In this document: one piece after another, positions 28,271 through 46,657 of the stretch
Position numbering within the stretch: position 1 is the first letter of the stretch
Layout of the letters: each line of letters begins with the position of its first letter
Source: Micromonospora zamorensis
GTDB taxonomy: Bacteria; Actinomycetota; Actinomycetes; Mycobacteriales; Micromonosporaceae
DNA length: 64,000 nucleotides
Direction of reading: 5' to 3'
Assembly (NCBI RefSeq): GCF_900090275.1
Contig: NZ_LT607755.1
Coordinates: forward strand, 682,001-746,000
Position numbers and translations under genes: made by a program
The notes under the pieces: model-generated
The model's input: the letters and a program-made list of their open reading frames with translations, nothing else
Databases searched by the model: none
What the model was told of the DNA's origin: nothing

Positions 28271-30517
28271 GTGGCCGCCGTCCCGGACCCCGCCGGGGTC
28301 GGTGCTGGCCGGGACCCCGCCGGGGTCGGTGTCGGTCGGGACCCCGCCGGGGTCGGTGCTGGCCCGGACCCCGCCGGGGTCGACGCCGGCCGGGCCGACG
28401 CCCAGGGGTACGCCGCCGACTGGGCCCGTGCGGTGCGCCGCCTCGGGTTCGTGCCGCTCAGCGCGGCCGAGACCGAGCGGCTGCTGCTGGTGCACACGAT
28501 CCGGCTGGCGCAGGCGGTGCGGGCGGAGCCCTTCTCCGCCCGCCCGGCCGAGGAGGTCGGGTGGGCGCTGGTGGAGGCGCACCTCACCGAGCCGCAGGCC
28601 CTGGACTGGACACTGCACGCCCTCGGTGCGGATTTCGCCGACCGGGTGCTGGGTGCCCTCGACCGGCCGGCGGACCTCGCCGACCGGATCGCGGCGGTGC
28701 AGGGCGGGCTGGCCGCCGGGTTCGCCCGCGCGCTTCGCGACCGCACCTTCAGTCAGCAGGAACGGATCGCCCGGTCCGCCTGGCAGGCGCGTGACGAGGT
28801 CGAGCAGGCGCTGCGCGACAGCGAGGCACGGTTCCGGGCCGTCTTCACCGGTGCCGCCATCGGGATCGGCATCGCCGGCGTGGACGGTCGGATCATCGAC
28901 GTCAACCAGGCCTTCGCCGACATGCTCGGCTACTCCATGGAGGAGCTGCGCGGGACCAACGTGGCGGCACTGTTCCACGCCGACGACGCCGCCGGGATGT
29001 GGGAGCTGTACCAGGAGCTGATCGAGGGCAAGCATGACGCGGCCCGGGTGGAGAAGCGCTACCACCGCAAGGACGGCAGCGTGGTCTGGACGGACCTGGC
29101 CGTCTCACTGATCCGCTACGACGACGGCCGGCCCCGGTTCACCGTCGCGATGATCGAGGACATCACCCAGCGGTACGAACTCCAGCAGCGGCTGCGCTTC
29201 CAGGCGTTGCACGACCCGCTGACCGGGCTGCCCAACCGGACGTTGTTCTTCGAGACGTTGGCGCGGGTCCTCGACGGCGCGGACAACGGGCGGCGAGTCG
29301 GGGTGTGCTTCCTCGACCTGGACGGCTTCAAGGCGATCAACGACAGCCTCGGTCACGACCTCGGTGACCGCCTGCTGGTGATGATCGGCCGGAGGCTGGC
29401 CGCGTGCGTGGCCGACCACGGCCACCTGGTCGCCCGGATGGGCGGCGACGAGTTCGTGATCCTCGTCGACGGAGGGGACGACATCGACGACGCGGTGGCC
29501 GTCGCGGAGGCCGCGCTGGCCGCCGTCGCGTCCCCGGTGCACGTCGGTGAACACCAGTTGGCCGTCTCGGCCAGTGTGGGCATCGTGCAGTGCCCGGCTG
29601 CGGAGACCTCCCCGTCGGAGCTGATGAAGGCCGCGGACACCACGCTGTACTGGGCGAAGGCGGCGGGCCGGGGCCGGTGGGCGGTCTACGACCCGGAGCG
29701 CAGCGCCCGGGACATCGCCCGGTCGGCGCTGGTGGCCGGGCTGCCCGCCGCACTGGACCGGGGCGAGTTCGTCCTGCACTACCAGCCGATCGTGTCGCTG
29801 CTGGAGGGCAGCATGCTCGCGGTGGAGGCGCTGGTCCGGTGGGAGCATCCGGAGCTGGGCCTGATCGGGCCGGACCGGTTCATCGGCCTGGCCGAGGAGA
29901 CCGGCCTGATCGTCCGGCTCGGTGAGTGGGTGCTGCGGCAGGCCTGTCACGACGCCGAGCGGTGGTGGCGGCAGTTCCCCGAGGCCAGGCTGGTGGTCAG
30001 CGTCAACCTGGCCGCGCGGCAGGCCGACGACCCGGCGATCGTGGAGACGGTGGCCGACGCGCTGCACACCAGCGGACTGCCGGCCGAGCTGCTTCAACTG
30101 GAGCTGACCGAGAGCGCCGTGATGGGCAGCGCCGACGAGCCTCTGCGCAGCCTGTACCGGCTCGCCGCGCTCGGCGTCCGGCTGGCGGTGGACGATTTCG
30201 GCACCGGATACTCCAACCTGGCGTACCTGCGGCGGCTGCCGATCCACTGCCTGAAGCTCGCCGGCCCGTTCGTCGAGGGCATCCGCGCCGACGGCACCGA
30301 CGTCGCCGCCGACCACCGTGACGAACGGATCGTCGACGCGCTGGTCCGGTTGGCGCACGCGCTGGAGCTGTGGGTGACCGCCGAGGCGGTGGAGACCGAG
30401 GTGCAGGCGGAACGGTTGCGGGCGTTGCGCTGCGACACCGGGCAGGGGCGATTCTTCGGCGCCCCGGCTCCGGCCGACACGATCACCGCCCGGCTCCGTG
30501 GCGGGGCGACGGCGTGA
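28271..30517 (+). CDS. PAS-GGDEF-EAL cyclic-di-GMP protein
   Basis: A 748-residue c-di-GMP turnover protein without transmembrane segments. Parts: a repetitive DPAGVGAGR head (about 5-42), a helical region (about 45-175), a PAS domain (about 185-300), a GGDEF domain (about 314-475, active motif RMGGDEF at about 390-396, no RxxD inhibition site five residues before it) and an EAL domain (about 490-748). EAL residues are largely kept: EALVRW, NLAARQ, LELTES, DDFGTGYSNL, EAVET and GQGRFF. The usual KID is KLA (LKLAGPFV). Both synthase and phosphodiesterase activity are plausible. The GTG at 28271 lies 4 bp after the methyltransferase stop, without its own ribosome-binding site. Confidence 0.92.
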   Translation: MAAVPDPAGVGAGRDPAGVGVGRDPAGVGAGPDPAGVDAGRADAQGYAADWARAVRRLGFVPLSAAETERLLLVHTIRLAQAVRAEPFSARPAEEVGWALVEAHLTEPQALDWTLHALGADFADRVLGALDRPADLADRIAAVQGGLAAGFARALRDRTFSQQERIARSAWQARDEVEQALRDSEARFRAVFTGAAIGIGIAGVDGRIIDVNQAFADMLGYSMEELRGTNVAALFHADDAAGMWELYQELIEGKHDAARVEKRYHRKDGSVVWTDLAVSLIRYDDGRPRFTVAMIEDITQRYELQQRLRFQALHDPLTGLPNRTLFFETLARVLDGADNGRRVGVCFLDLDGFKAINDSLGHDLGDRLLVMIGRRLAACVADHGHLVARMGGDEFVILVDGGDDIDDAVAVAEAALAAVASPVHVGEHQLAVSASVGIVQCPAAETSPSELMKAADTTLYWAKAAGRGRWAVYDPERSARDIARSALVAGLPAALDRGEFVLHYQPIVSLLEGSMLAVEALVRWEHPELGLIGPDRFIGLAEETGLIVRLGEWVLRQACHDAERWWRQFPEARLVVSVNLAARQADDPAIVETVADALHTSGLPAELLQLELTESAVMGSADEPLRSLYRLAALGVRLAVDDFGTGYSNLAYLRRLPIHCLKLAGPFVEGIRADGTDVAADHRDERIVDALVRLAHALELWVTAEAVETEVQAERLRALRCDTGQGRFFGAPAPADTITARLRGGATA
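28286..28393 (+). repeat. Coding 27-bp tandem repeat, four copies
   Basis: The 15-bp palindrome GACCCCGCCGGGGTC recurs at 28286, 28313, 28340 and 28367 with an exact 27-bp period. It encodes four DPAGVxAGx units at the N-terminus of the GGDEF-EAL protein. Because the period is a multiple of three, copy number can change without breaking the frame. Confidence 0.85.
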
Positions 30518-36405: not shown

Positions 36406-37761
36406 GTGACGGTTCTGGTGGACCCGGCTTCCGGGGTGGAATTTCAGGAGGTCGTGGGGGCTTCCGTCGACGAGGTTGACCAGGCGATCTCGCGGGCCGC
36501 CACCGCGTTCGAGGCGTGGCGGAGGGTGGCTCCCGGGGACCGGGCACGCCTGCTGCGGCGGTTCGCCGCCGTGGTCGACGCGCACCTGGACGAGCTGGCC
36601 GCGCTGGAGGTCCGCAACTCCGGCCACACCATCGGCAACGCCCGGTGGGAAGCCGGCAACGTGCGGGACGTCCTGGACTACTACGCCGGGGCGCCCGAGC
36701 GGTTGACCGGGCGGCAGATCCCGGTGCCGGGCGGGCTGGACGTCACCTTCCACGAGCCGCTCGGCGTGGTCGGCGTGATCGTCCCCTGGAACTTCCCGAT
36801 GCCGATCGCGGCCTGGGGGTTCGTCCCGGCCCTCGCCGCCGGCAACACGGTGGTGCTCAAACCCGCCGAGCTGACCCCGCTGACCGCGCTGCGGCTGGCC
36901 GAGCTGGCCCGCGAGGCAGGCCTGCCCGACGACGTGTTCATCGTCGTACCGGGCGAGGGCGCGGTGGTGGGGGAGCGGTTCGTCAGCCACCCGGCGGTCC
37001 GCAAGATCTGCTTCACCGGCTCCACCGAGGTCGGCACCCGGATCATGGCCGGCTGTGCGGCCCAGGTGAAGCGACTCACCCTGGAGCTGGGCGGCAAGAG
37101 CGCGAACATCGTGTTCGCCGACGCCGACCTGGAGCGCGCCGCCGCGACCGCGCCGGGCGCGGTCTTCGACAACGCGGGCCAGGACTGCTGCGCACGGTCG
37201 CGGATCCTGGTCCAGCGCCCGGTGTACGACAGGTTCCTGGCACTGCTCGAACCAGCGGTACGCGCGGTGCGGGTCCAGGACCCGTCCCGGGACACCGCCG
37301 AGATGGGTCCGCTGATCTCCGCGGCCCAGCGCGACCGGGTCGCCGGCTACCTGACCGGGGCGACTGTCGCCTTCACCGGCTCCTGCCCCGACGGCCCCGG
37401 GTTCTGGCACGCCCCCACAGTGCTGCTGGCCGACTCGCCAGCCGACCGGCACTGGCGGGAGGAGATCTTCGGCCCGGTGGTCTCGGTGCTGCCGTTCGAC
37501 GACGAGGCCGACGCGGTCCGGCTCGCCAACGACACCGAGTACGGGCTCTCCGGCTCGATCTGGACCCGGGACGTGGGTCGGGCCCTGCGCCTGGCCCGCG
37601 CCGTCGAGTCGGGAAACCTGAGCGTCAACTCGCACTCCTCGGTGCGCTACTGGACCCCGTTCGGCGGGATGAAGCGTTCCGGGCTCGGCCGTGAGCTGGG
37701 CCCGGACGCGCTGCACTCCTTCACCGACGTCAAGAACGTGTTCATCGCGACAGAGGAGTGA
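36406..37761 (+). CDS. NAD(P)+-dependent aldehyde dehydrogenase
   Basis: A 451-residue ALDH that would oxidise the gamma-glutamylated aldehyde formed after deamination of the amine. Catalytic Cys is in AGQDCCARSR (about residue 260), the general base Glu in LELGGKSAN (about 228), Asn in IVPWNFPMP (about 128) and Lys in VVLKPAELTP. It is shorter at the N-terminus than most ALDHs (about 490). GTG start 22 bp after the ligase stop; the stop overlaps the SDR start by GTGA. It is the middle gene of the operon. Confidence 0.93.
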   Translation: MTVLVDPASGVEFQEVVGASVDEVDQAISRAATAFEAWRRVAPGDRARLLRRFAAVVDAHLDELAALEVRNSGHTIGNARWEAGNVRDVLDYYAGAPERLTGRQIPVPGGLDVTFHEPLGVVGVIVPWNFPMPIAAWGFVPALAAGNTVVLKPAELTPLTALRLAELAREAGLPDDVFIVVPGEGAVVGERFVSHPAVRKICFTGSTEVGTRIMAGCAAQVKRLTLELGGKSANIVFADADLERAAATAPGAVFDNAGQDCCARSRILVQRPVYDRFLALLEPAVRAVRVQDPSRDTAEMGPLISAAQRDRVAGYLTGATVAFTGSCPDGPGFWHAPTVLLADSPADRHWREEIFGPVVSVLPFDDEADAVRLANDTEYGLSGSIWTRDVGRALRLARAVESGNLSVNSHSSVRYWTPFGGMKRSGLGRELGPDALHSFTDVKNVFIATEE

Positions 37762-38534
37762 CGCCAGTGCAGGGTCGATTGCAGGACCGGGTGGCCGTTA
37801 TCACCGGAGCGGGCAGCGGCATCGGGTTGGCCACCGTCCGGCGGTTCACCGCCGAGGGGGCCCGGGTGGTCTGCGTGGACATCGACGTGGCGGCCGGCGA
37901 GAAGGCCGCCGAGGAGTGCGGCGGCGAGTTCGTCCGCGCAGACGTCGCCGACGAGTCGGCGGTACGCGACCTGTTCGACGGGGTGGTCGACCGGCACGGC
38001 CGGGTGGACATCGCGTTCAACAACGCCGGCATCTCGCCGCCCGACGACGACTCCATCCTGGACACCGGCCTCGACGCGTGGGAGCGGGTGCTGCGGGTCA
38101 ACACCACCAGCGTCTTCCTCTGCTGCAAGTACGCGATTCCGCACATGCGCCGCCAGGGCAAGGGGTCGATCATCAACACGGCCTCGTTCGTGGCGCTGAT
38201 GGGCGCGGCGACGTCGCAGATCGCGTACACCGCGAGCAAGGGCGGCGTGCTGGCGATGACCCGGGAGTTGGGTGTGCAGTTCGCCCGCGAGGGCATCCGG
38301 GTCAACGCGCTGTGCCCCGGCCCGGTGGCCACCCCGTTGTTGCTGGAGTTGTTCGCCGCCGACCCGGAGCGGGCCGCCCGTCGGCTGGTGCACGTGCCGA
38401 TGGGCCGCTTCGGGCAACCCGAGGAGATCGCCGCCGCGGTGGCGTTCCTGGCCAGCGACGACGCCTCGTTCATGACCGCCGCGCAGTTCGTGGTCGACGG
38501 CGGCATCACGGGCGCCTACGTCACCCCCCTGTGA
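37758..38534 (+). CDS. Short-chain dehydrogenase/reductase (SDR)
   Basis: A 258-residue classical SDR with the cofactor motif TGAGSGIG (residues about 14-21), NNAG at about 92, the active-site Ser-Tyr-Lys in INTASFVALMG and YTASKGG, and PGPVATPL. The Asp after the second strand (VVCVDID) indicates NAD(H). In Puu-like or ethanolamine-type clusters an SDR may oxidise an alcohol intermediate, but the role is not settled. GTG at 37758 overlaps the ALDH stop (GTGA). Its own stop lies in the first unit of a 59-bp repeat (38531). Confidence 0.9.
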   Translation: MTPVQGRLQDRVAVITGAGSGIGLATVRRFTAEGARVVCVDIDVAAGEKAAEECGGEFVRADVADESAVRDLFDGVVDRHGRVDIAFNNAGISPPDDDSILDTGLDAWERVLRVNTTSVFLCCKYAIPHMRRQGKGSIINTASFVALMGAATSQIAYTASKGGVLAMTRELGVQFAREGIRVNALCPGPVATPLLLELFAADPERAARRLVHVPMGRFGQPEEIAAAVAFLASDDASFMTAAQFVVDGGITGAYVTPL

Positions 38535-38711
38535 GCGCGAGGAGTGAGCCGGTCTTGCGAGCCCCGCAGTCGCGAACGAGGCCGGCACTGTGAGCGCGAG
38601 GAGTGAGCCGGTCTTGCGAGCCCCGCAGTCGCGAACGAGGCCGGCACTGTGAGCGTGAGGAGTGAGCCGGTCTTGCGAGCCCCGCAGTCGCGAACCTTGG
38701 CAGCCCTGTGA
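38531..38711 (+). repeat. Three tandem 59-bp repeats, GTGA-flanked, plus the start of a fourth
   Basis: Units start at 38531, 38590 and 38649, with a partial fourth at 38708, an exact 59-bp period. Each starts GTGAGCG(C/T)GAGG and contains GCGAGCCCCGCAGTCGCGAA; the third unit diverges at its end. The GTGA of unit 1 supplies the TGA stop of the SDR and the GTGA of unit 4 supplies the GTG start of the next gene. Removing three units would restore a 4-bp GTGA stop-start overlap. Arms inside the unit (AGTGAGCCGG ... CCGGCACT) can pair. Confidence 0.9.
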
Positions 38712-39406
38712 GCGCGAGGCCGCTGATCGGGATCAGCGCGTACGTCGAACCGGCCGACTGGGCGGTCTGGAGGGGTGTGCCGGCCGTGCTGGTGCCGGCG
38801 GCGTACGTGCGGGCGGTGACGGCGGCGGGCGGCCGGGCGTTGGTGCTGCCCCCGGACGACGTGGACGGCGAGGTGGTGGCCGTCCTGGACGGGCTGCTGC
38901 TGGCTGGTGGCGCCGACGTGGGTCCGGGGCGGTACGGCCAGCGGCCCGACCCGCGTACCGAGGACCGGCCGGACCGGGACGCCGGTGAGTTGACCCTGCT
39001 GACCGCCGCTCTCGCCGCCGAGCTGCCGGTGTTGGGGGTGTGCCGGGGGATGCAACTGCTCGCCGTGGCCTACGGCGGGACACTGCACCAGCATCTGCCC
39101 GATGTGGTCGGTCACGAGGCACACCGTCCGGCGCCCGGTGTGTATGGCAGCCATCCGGTGCGGTTCGCGCCGGGCAGTCTGGCCGCGACGGTGTTGGCCG
39201 GGGTGGACCGGGTCAACTCGTACCACCATCAGGCGGTCGCCGACCCGGGCCGGTTGTCGGTGACGGGTTGGGCGGAGGACGGTGTGGTCGAGGTGGTGGA
39301 GGACCCGGCCCGGCCGTTCGTGCTGGGGGTGCAGTGGCACCCGGAGAACGAGCCTGACCCTCGTCCGATCACCGCCCTGGTCGGGGCCGCTGGCCAGCGG
39401 GTGTGA
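38708..39406 (+). CDS. Gamma-glutamyl-gamma-aminobutyrate hydrolase-like class I amidotransferase (peptidase C26, PuuD-like)
   Basis: A 232-residue glutamine-amidotransferase-fold hydrolase that would release the glutamyl group after oxidation. The triad is Cys in LGVCRGMQLL (about residue 113), His in GVQWHPENE and the Glu three positions on; LLLAGGADVGPGRYG and VNSYHHQAV are family typical. The GTG at 38708 and the first residues VSAR come from the partial fourth 59-bp repeat. It closes the amine cluster. No ribosome-binding site is clear, so coupling or read-through from the SDR is likely. Confidence 0.92.
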   Translation: MSARPLIGISAYVEPADWAVWRGVPAVLVPAAYVRAVTAAGGRALVLPPDDVDGEVVAVLDGLLLAGGADVGPGRYGQRPDPRTEDRPDRDAGELTLLTAALAAELPVLGVCRGMQLLAVAYGGTLHQHLPDVVGHEAHRPAPGVYGSHPVRFAPGSLAATVLAGVDRVNSYHHQAVADPGRLSVTGWAEDGVVEVVEDPARPFVLGVQWHPENEPDPRPITALVGAAGQRV

Positions 39407-45922: not shown

Positions 45923-46657
45923 TCAACCGGTGAGCAGCTCGTCGATAGTGCCGTCCACCCCACGACCACGGGCGGCCAACTCCTCGGCCTGCCGGGCCAG
46001 CACCACACCCACCTCTGTCATGTCCGCGCCGGCCAACCCGGTGCGTCGTACCGCGTCCCCGGGATCACGGAAGTAGGTGCGACTCAGCAGACCGGTCACC
46101 GTGGCCGCCGCCAACCGGGCCTCACCGAGCATCAGCAGGGCCTGGTCGGTCTCGTACCACTCGGCCAGTCGGGCGGCCCGGGCGTGCGCCGCGCTGCCCC
46201 TGTACCAGGCCTGCCGGGCCGCGGTGCTGAACTCCGCCGGCCGGGCCCTCGCCAACCGGCCGAGGTGCTCGTCGCGCAGCGTCCGCAACCAGCCCGTCGG
46301 GTCGTGCAACGCCTGCGTGGTGACGTACCGGTCGGCGGTCAACGGCCACAGTGGGGAGAGCACCCGGGCCTGCGCCAGGTAGTCCTCGGCGGCGGCCACG
46401 GTCAGGTCGACCAGCACCCCGTCCACCCGCCGGGTCGCGGGCGGTGGACCCGCGCCGGACCGATAGGTGACCACCAGCATCCCCGCCTCGCGGTCCCCAC
46501 CGCCGTCGTCGTCGCCGTGCGCCAGGGGCCCGTGCACCGCGACCGTGAGCACGTCGGCCGGAAACCGCCGTCGGACCGCCTCGGCGACCCGCTCCGCGAC
46601 CGTCCACCGTCGATCATCGAGGTCCCGGCCGCCAGCCGGCTCACTCCTCGCGCTCAC
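45923..46657 (-). CDS. Nucleotidyltransferase-like hypothetical protein
   Basis: A 244-residue soluble protein. Near residue 40 it has VAVHGPLAHGDDDGGGDREA, which resembles the GS-x-DxD active site of MNT/aminoglycoside nucleotidyltransferases but with GPLAHG in place of GSxxxG, so activity is doubtful. The rest is helical, with AARQAWYRGSAAHARAA and a C-terminal helix ending TIDELLTG. The start GTG at 46657 and the first eight codons (MSARSEPA) lie in a half copy of the 59-bp repeat. It lies 33 bp after the upstream deazaflavin-type gene, in the same direction. Confidence 0.65.
   Translation of the reverse strand: MSARSEPAGGRDLDDRRWTVAERVAEAVRRRFPADVLTVAVHGPLAHGDDDGGGDREAGMLVVTYRSGAGPPPATRRVDGVLVDLTVAAAEDYLAQARVLSPLWPLTADRYVTTQALHDPTGWLRTLRDEHLGRLARARPAEFSTAARQAWYRGSAAHARAARLAEWYETDQALLMLGEARLAAATVTGLLSRTYFRDPGDAVRRTGLAGADMTEVGVVLARQAEELAARGRGVDGTIDELLTG
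46636..46657 (-). repeat. Half copy of the 59-bp repeat that supplies a gene start
   Basis: On the minus strand the first 22 bases from the start codon (GTGAGCGCGAGGAGTGAGCC plus GG) equal positions 1-22 of the tandem unit at 38531. It is thus read as the N-terminal codons of the nucleotidyltransferase-like gene. Confidence 0.8.

Follow-up and report, generated by a model that had tools for sequence, protein, structure and literature searches.

A probable MIRU-type mobile repeat at stop-start overlaps in the Micromonosporaceae

In the window, by which is meant the whole stretch of 64,000 nucleotides of the Micromonospora zamorensis genome that was analysed, an SDR gene is joined to a gene for a Peptidase_C26 or gamma-glutamyl hydrolase-like protein by a tandem array of three 59-bp units and 12 nt of a fourth (38531-38719; TRF: period 59, 3.2 copies, 93% matches). 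The first-pass annotation had described three units and the start of a fourth, which TRF and a comparison of the units confirm, and had placed the TGA stop of the SDR gene in the first GTGA of the array and the GTG start of the hydrolase gene in the last, with which the open reading frames and Pfam agree. The features of the region, together with one isolated copy of the beginning of the element, are as follows.

37758..38534, + strand: upstream gene, SDR (longest ORF from the predicted start; Pfam PF13561, PF00106)
38531..38589, + strand: element unit 1, 59 bp
38590..38648, + strand: element unit 2, 59 bp, identical to unit 1
38649..38707, + strand: element unit 3, 59 bp, with one head substitution and the last 12-13 nt different
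38708-38719, + strand: partial fourth unit, 12 nt, GTGAGCGCGAGG
38531..38593, + strand: mini-ORF 1, GTG to TGA, 20 codons, its start overlapping the SDR stop by 4 nt
38590..38652, + strand: mini-ORF 2, 20 codons, its start overlapping the stop of mini-ORF 1
38649..38711, + strand: mini-ORF 3, 20 codons, its stop overlapping the hydrolase start codon
38708..39406, + strand: downstream gene, Peptidase_C26 / gamma-glutamyl hydrolase-like (Pfam PF07722)
46639..46657, - strand: isolated 19-nt element head without core (L066), between two co-directional genes (genome 728639-728657)

The SDR stop codon occupies 38532-38534 and the hydrolase gene starts at 38708, and from the one to the other a chain of overlapping stops and starts runs at 0, 59, 118 and 177. 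Since 59 is two more than a multiple of three, each unit amounts to a 20-codon GTG...TGA mini-ORF with overlaps of 4 nt at both ends. A 22-nt core of the unit gave three matches in the window (up to three mismatches) against none in 100 shuffles. Elsewhere in the window, at 28277-28394, a 27-bp unit is repeated 4.4 times in tandem at the start of a called gene (28271-30517).

The element is dispersed in the genome of M. zamorensis, with copies at about 40 loci. The core has 48 matches in the 7.1 Mb (up to three mismatches) as opposed to none for the reversed pattern, the 19-nt head has 45 (up to two mismatches; control 0), and BLAST returned at least 50 matches, several of them in tandem, with 40 of 76 candidates scored. 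The analysis covered 42 loci; L109, which had no match under the thresholds, was left out, and head-only matches at 5315504, 5381550 and 6153741 lie outside the 42. At four loci (L027, L033, L052, L101) a short form of 56 nt has 5 nt fewer between head and core and a longer tail, the tail bringing the length to 56 nt and so keeping the frame. A second sample was drawn from a scan of named species (80 loci listed of 120 stretches), which uses exact matches and so favours well-kept copies; 73 of its 84 arrays were usable, 11 being too near the end of a locus, and the 73 are not 73 independent insertions, as there may be orthologues among them or between them and the M. zamorensis arrays.

The arrays listed in this sample have between one and four units, and the single unit is the commonest form (44 of 73). 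The units within an array are near-identical and array sizes differ between relatives, as would be expected of a tandem repeat born in place by slippage at GTGA, and a true local duplication of 14 nt does exist at a GTGA junction (site L016, in genome G039). The presence of the same sequence at about 40 loci of one genome, mostly as single units in the wider sample, refutes slippage as the origin of the family as a whole and leaves it to account for array growth alone; that the repeat is no mobile family at all is thus highly improbable.

Placement of the copies is far from random, and searches of these genomes bear out the suspicion of the first-pass annotation that stop-start junctions are favoured. 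In the M. zamorensis genome the TGA of a co-directional upstream gene falls exactly at the head of the element at 28 of 42 loci, with L030 a 29th that is one base off, where genes were called with a codon-usage caller made for this analysis and not taken from published annotation. The same holds for 55 of the 73 listed arrays of the second sample, whilst a downstream start codon lies at the tail in 63 (the tetranucleotide at this right edge being GTGA in 48 and ATGA in 11) and both edges fit in 48. Exceptions occur: 18 of the 73 have no upstream stop at the head, two of the 73 listed arrays lie within a called gene, and in M. zamorensis the copies at L096, L099, L102, L103 and L066 lie elsewhere.

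It could be supposed that the element inserts unspecifically at any RTGA and that selection alone spares the stop-start copies, since copies inside genes would be lost and RTGA is short. At the same loci, gene stops make up only 12 of 536 GTGAGC sites outside the element and 158 of 5577 RTGA sites (2-3%). Even if targets are confined to those that would be tolerated, that is gene stops and wholly intergenic sites, stops come to 21-22%, compared with 55 of the 73 listed arrays (binomial P about 1e-22, taking the arrays as independent), and neither chance nor tolerated insertion at any RTGA therefore explains the placement. As intergenic copies may decay beyond detection, selection is possibly part of the cause, and we regard this account, a variant compatible with the explanation preferred below, as unlikely though not negligibly so.

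Comparison with relatives shows what such junctions look like when the element is absent. The SDR gene was found in 59 of 61 genomes of the genus, and both genes could be parsed at 36 of these 59 loci, 18 occupied and 18 empty; five of the 23 unparsed loci were inspected and lacked a hydrolase start after the SDR stop. All 18 empty junctions have a 4-nt ATGA or GTGA stop-start overlap, L117 being read by eye and the other 17 by script. In five (L118, L126, L127, L130, L133) extra in-frame sequence follows the overlapping start. At a second site, rph-rdgB, 56 of 60 loci were parsed as 31 clearly empty, 21 occupied and four odd, and all 31 of the clearly empty ones overlap by 4 nt, 28 by ATGA. 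One of the odd loci, L160, resembles a worn copy of the element; L218 (G043) and L221 (G015), from small genomes, carry at the same point a diverged insert of some 53 nt whose head is different and which may represent a sister family. In the SDR-hydrolase junction of G048 (L172) the head of the element is itself interrupted by a palindrome-like insert of about 50 bp, and a second short repeat family may thus use the element as its own target.

Twenty further sites of the M. zamorensis genome were each looked up in four relatives. Of the 80 junctions 70 were recovered, 36 empty and 34 occupied, and 27 of the 36 empty ones overlap by 4 nt. The other nine comprise two with TAATG (the empty relatives at L110 and L023), four at L028, one duplication and two at L025. 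The four at L028 stand outside the 27 as the frame taken by the script was wrong there; read by eye, three have an ATGA at which an 8-codon ORF begins by overlap and runs on to the gene, and the fourth has an in-frame ATGA start. In these three (L257, L265, L262) the 8-codon mini-ORF, of 23 nt and unrelated to the element, joins stop to start through two 4-nt overlaps. Site L016 in two relatives (L248 of G039 and L271 of G056) shows a 14-nt tandem duplication that starts at the junction GTGA, with the chain kept when read by eye; de novo duplications at stop-start overlaps therefore exist as well.

The first-pass annotation had staked its interpretation on empty junctions overlapping by 4 nt and on copies not lying at random positions, and on both counts it is supported. 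The target it proposed has to be widened: the stop-start overlap stands, GTGA as the only sequence does not, and RTGA takes its place (ATGA in 21 and GTGA in 13 of the 36 empty junctions). A strict duplication of the GTGA, as proposed, is not borne out by the individual sites. L006 is the cleanest case, with ggtggccgc followed directly by ATGA in three relatives and by GTGAGCGC... and then ATGA in M. zamorensis; here and at L026 and L052 the base before TGA is G at the left edge, where empty relatives have ATGA (at L052 one of them has GTGA), and A at the right edge, whilst L028 shows the reverse, A at the left and G at the right. As both patterns occur the exact insertion joint is not fixed, the edge bases being free to change, one as the third base of a codon and the other as the initial base of a start codon.

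The same site holds one, two or three units in different relatives, and occupancy itself has changed often. Gene trees give at least 13 state changes at rph-rdgB (52 rows) and at least nine at the SDR-hydrolase site (31 rows), counts that leave out five and four rows of neither clear state and come from trees with many weak branches; sisters that differ in state, at a support of 83-97, are L137/L140, L155/L157, L163/L216 and L147/L150. At most sites the trees do not fix whether a change was a gain or a precise loss. Recent gain is argued for L028, since of five genomes only M. zamorensis is occupied and all four relatives are without the element; L008 is similar, but one of its relatives (G024) reads as empty in one comparison and as occupied in another.

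Within the genus the core pattern was found in all 151 genomes drawn, with 2 to 85 matches each and three matches in total for the reversed control. In a sample of 200 genomes of the family it occurs in 90, from 23 of 44 genera (38 of 38 genomes within the genus and 52 of 162 outside it), and among the carriers in the listed named species are many Micromonospora, Plantactinospora mayteni, Plantactinospora alkalitolerans and Paractinoplanes toevensis. A class-wide BLAST in which two candidates were scored per genome gave matches in only four of 394 genomes (M. zamorensis itself, two of the genus, and G362 of another family with a single weak match, E = 2.8e-4); as this was too insensitive, range was judged by an exhaustive pattern search on the order. 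The core was present in 68 of 397 genomes, namely 62 of 62 of the genus, three of 17 other members of the family and three of 318 from other families. Each of these last three has one core match and the reversed control likewise gives three single matches, so that outside the family the pattern is at control level in the 318 genomes of the order. One record of a plasmid collection, from Micromonospora terminaliae, has a match between genes for a glycerol-3-phosphate dehydrogenase and an acyltransferase. No description of such an element in Micromonospora was found among the titles and abstracts listed from the open-licence literature, and a report may exist outside them.

How the reading frames of its neighbours are joined through the element was scored by whether a chain of overlaps reaches the next gene; a tally of unit length modulo 3 is true by construction and was not used. 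Of 53 listed arrays in the second sample 50 preserve the link, as 42 mini-ORF chains and eight in-frame fusions, and three break it, and it is reached by chain or in frame at 29 of the 42 M. zamorensis loci. Among the 39 occupied junctions of the two orthologous sites 33 preserve it (28 by chain and five in frame) and six break the chain, and when 1 or 2 nt were deleted in silico the link was reached in 29 of 78 cases as against the 33 of 39 intact. At L010, L011, L013 and L023 of the M. zamorensis genome the element shares the frame of the gene that follows, whose product may gain N-terminal residues from it.

The tail of the element often has a Shine-Dalgarno-like GAAGG or GGAGG some 7 nt before the next start, although the third unit in the window is without GAAGG. 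Predicted pairing with the anti-Shine-Dalgarno sequence is -9.50 kcal/mol for tails and -6.68 kcal/mol for shuffled ones at 24 of the 42 loci, chosen for a clear right edge, and is not significantly better than for the flank left of the element (-9.50 vs -8.34, paired P = 0.21). Occupied orthologues have stronger Shine-Dalgarno values than empty ones, both at rph (-9.02, n = 20, vs -7.36, n = 31) and at the SDR site (-5.93, n = 18, vs -2.90, n = 17), with P values that are indicative only as they treat related sequences as independent.

This last difference, and the high conservation of head and core, are what one would look for if the element were a regulatory RNA or a protein-binding site, conserved for its control of the downstream gene. 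Rfam, however, has no matches up to E = 1 in 38300-38900, and the unit-length stretch at 38534-38592 folds no better than its shuffles (z = 0.02, for this one 59-nt stretch as a single sequence), on which grounds a riboswitch or other structured RNA was rejected. A regulon was rejected likewise, as the genes that flank ten sites are unrelated (M16 peptidases, sugar and urea transporters, a sensor kinase, a response regulator, rph-rdgB and nuoK among others). Junctions that hold the element in M. zamorensis are, besides, found empty in its near relatives. It would seem very unlikely that the element is maintained as a regulatory site.

Among known repeats, REP and REPIN sequences are short, palindromic and dispersed, have no gene of their own and are tied to a Y1 transposase. 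The element is also short, dispersed and without a gene, and it adjoins a conserved tetranucleotide, so that movement by such a transposase (RAYT) comes to mind. The single stretch that was folded shows no distinctive hairpin, and the Y1 transposase domain (PF01797) has no match in the genome of M. zamorensis, whilst the control for this search was positive in 5 of 14 genomes; a REP/RAYT system was rejected for this absence and must be rated extremely improbable. We know of no REP element with a precise placement between stop and start.

A closer likeness is found in the mycobacteria. The first-pass annotation knew of no name for the element, yet its kind has one, that of the mycobacterial interspersed repetitive units (MIRUs), which mostly serve as typing markers in tuberculosis. 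Supply et al. are said to have recognised in 1997 that empty MIRU sites are DTGA stop-start overlaps, and to our knowledge how MIRUs spread into such junctions has been an open question since then. In the new element, too, empty sites are stop-start overlaps (18 of 18, 31 of 31 and 27 of 36, with TAATG at two exceptions). According to a 2025 review, which credits the coupling to Supply et al. 1997, MIRUs are apparently mobile and insert at start codons, with an internal ORF coupled to the next gene at a spacing of -4 nt (PMC12548453); the Micromonospora element, as read from sequence alone, has its internal small ORF linked at -4 nt by a mini-ORF chain in 42 of 53 arrays, with eight more in frame and three broken. 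Other accounts state that MIRUs measure 40-100 bp, occur at 41 places in one genome and have units of 77 and 53 bp (PMC2734929, PMC4213456), and describe variable copy numbers and mostly intergenic positions within presumed operons (PMC12548453, PMC2734929, PMC4213456, PMC3635867).

The 59 and 56 nt of the element lie within that size range, its 48 core matches correspond to tens of loci, its tandem arrays vary between relatives (one to four units among the 73 listed), and it is co-directional, in operon sense, at 28 of 42 M. zamorensis loci and in 55 of 73 listed arrays, the rest not being so. The unit lengths, 77 and 53 there and 59 and 56 here, all leave a remainder of 2 when divided by 3, as is required for a chain of 4-nt overlaps. 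The hosts differ, the Micromonosporaceae being another bacterial family, and the tail, often Shine-Dalgarno-like here, may be a further difference. The same sources disagree on MIRU range, which one gives as many mycobacteria and another, for the senX3-regX3 repeats, as M. leprae and the tuberculosis complex alone (PMC12548453, PMC2734929, PMC4213456, PMC3635867). By these structural features, present in most copies, the element would be of the same kind as MIRUs; common descent is not claimed. Short leader ORFs that deliver a ribosome to the next gene by termination-reinitiation, as outlined in the review (PMC12548453), resemble it in that a short ORF precedes the gene, and differ in that the ORF of the element comes with a dispersed repeat and not with the operon.

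We conclude that the element is, with high probability, a MIRU-type short mobile repeat of the Micromonosporaceae that sits at RTGA stop-start overlaps in operon sense. In sequence, the GTGA of a unit holds both the stop (TGA) of the gene before it and the start (GTG) of a mini-ORF of about 20 codons, whose own stop in a typical copy overlaps the RTG start of the next unit or gene, leaving the chain of 4-nt overlaps unbroken. Ribosomes that finish the upstream gene would then re-initiate on the mini-ORF and after it on the downstream gene, and an insertion would for that reason be nearly silent and carry little cost. Spread would proceed by insertion at stop-start junctions through a putative mobilising machinery, and arrays may lengthen through slippage or through re-insertion at the GTGA of a unit. 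A bolder and decidedly speculative reading, to which we give a low probability, is that translation-transparent mobile repeats occur well beyond mycobacteria as stop-mini-ORF-start cassettes whose putative machinery recognises the overlap itself, possibly via translation or RNA, rather than just a tetranucleotide of DNA; the TAATG of the empty relatives at two sites is cited in its favour.

For annotation the element is a warning, as downstream starts and N-terminal extensions of about 20 residues beside the repeats are easily miscalled. What it offers is a soil-bacterial family of the same design as MIRUs, many of whose host genomes hold dozens of copies, and with junctions that are empty in one species and occupied in a related one, so that both the targeting of such repeats and their effect on coupled translation would be directly testable outside a pathogen.
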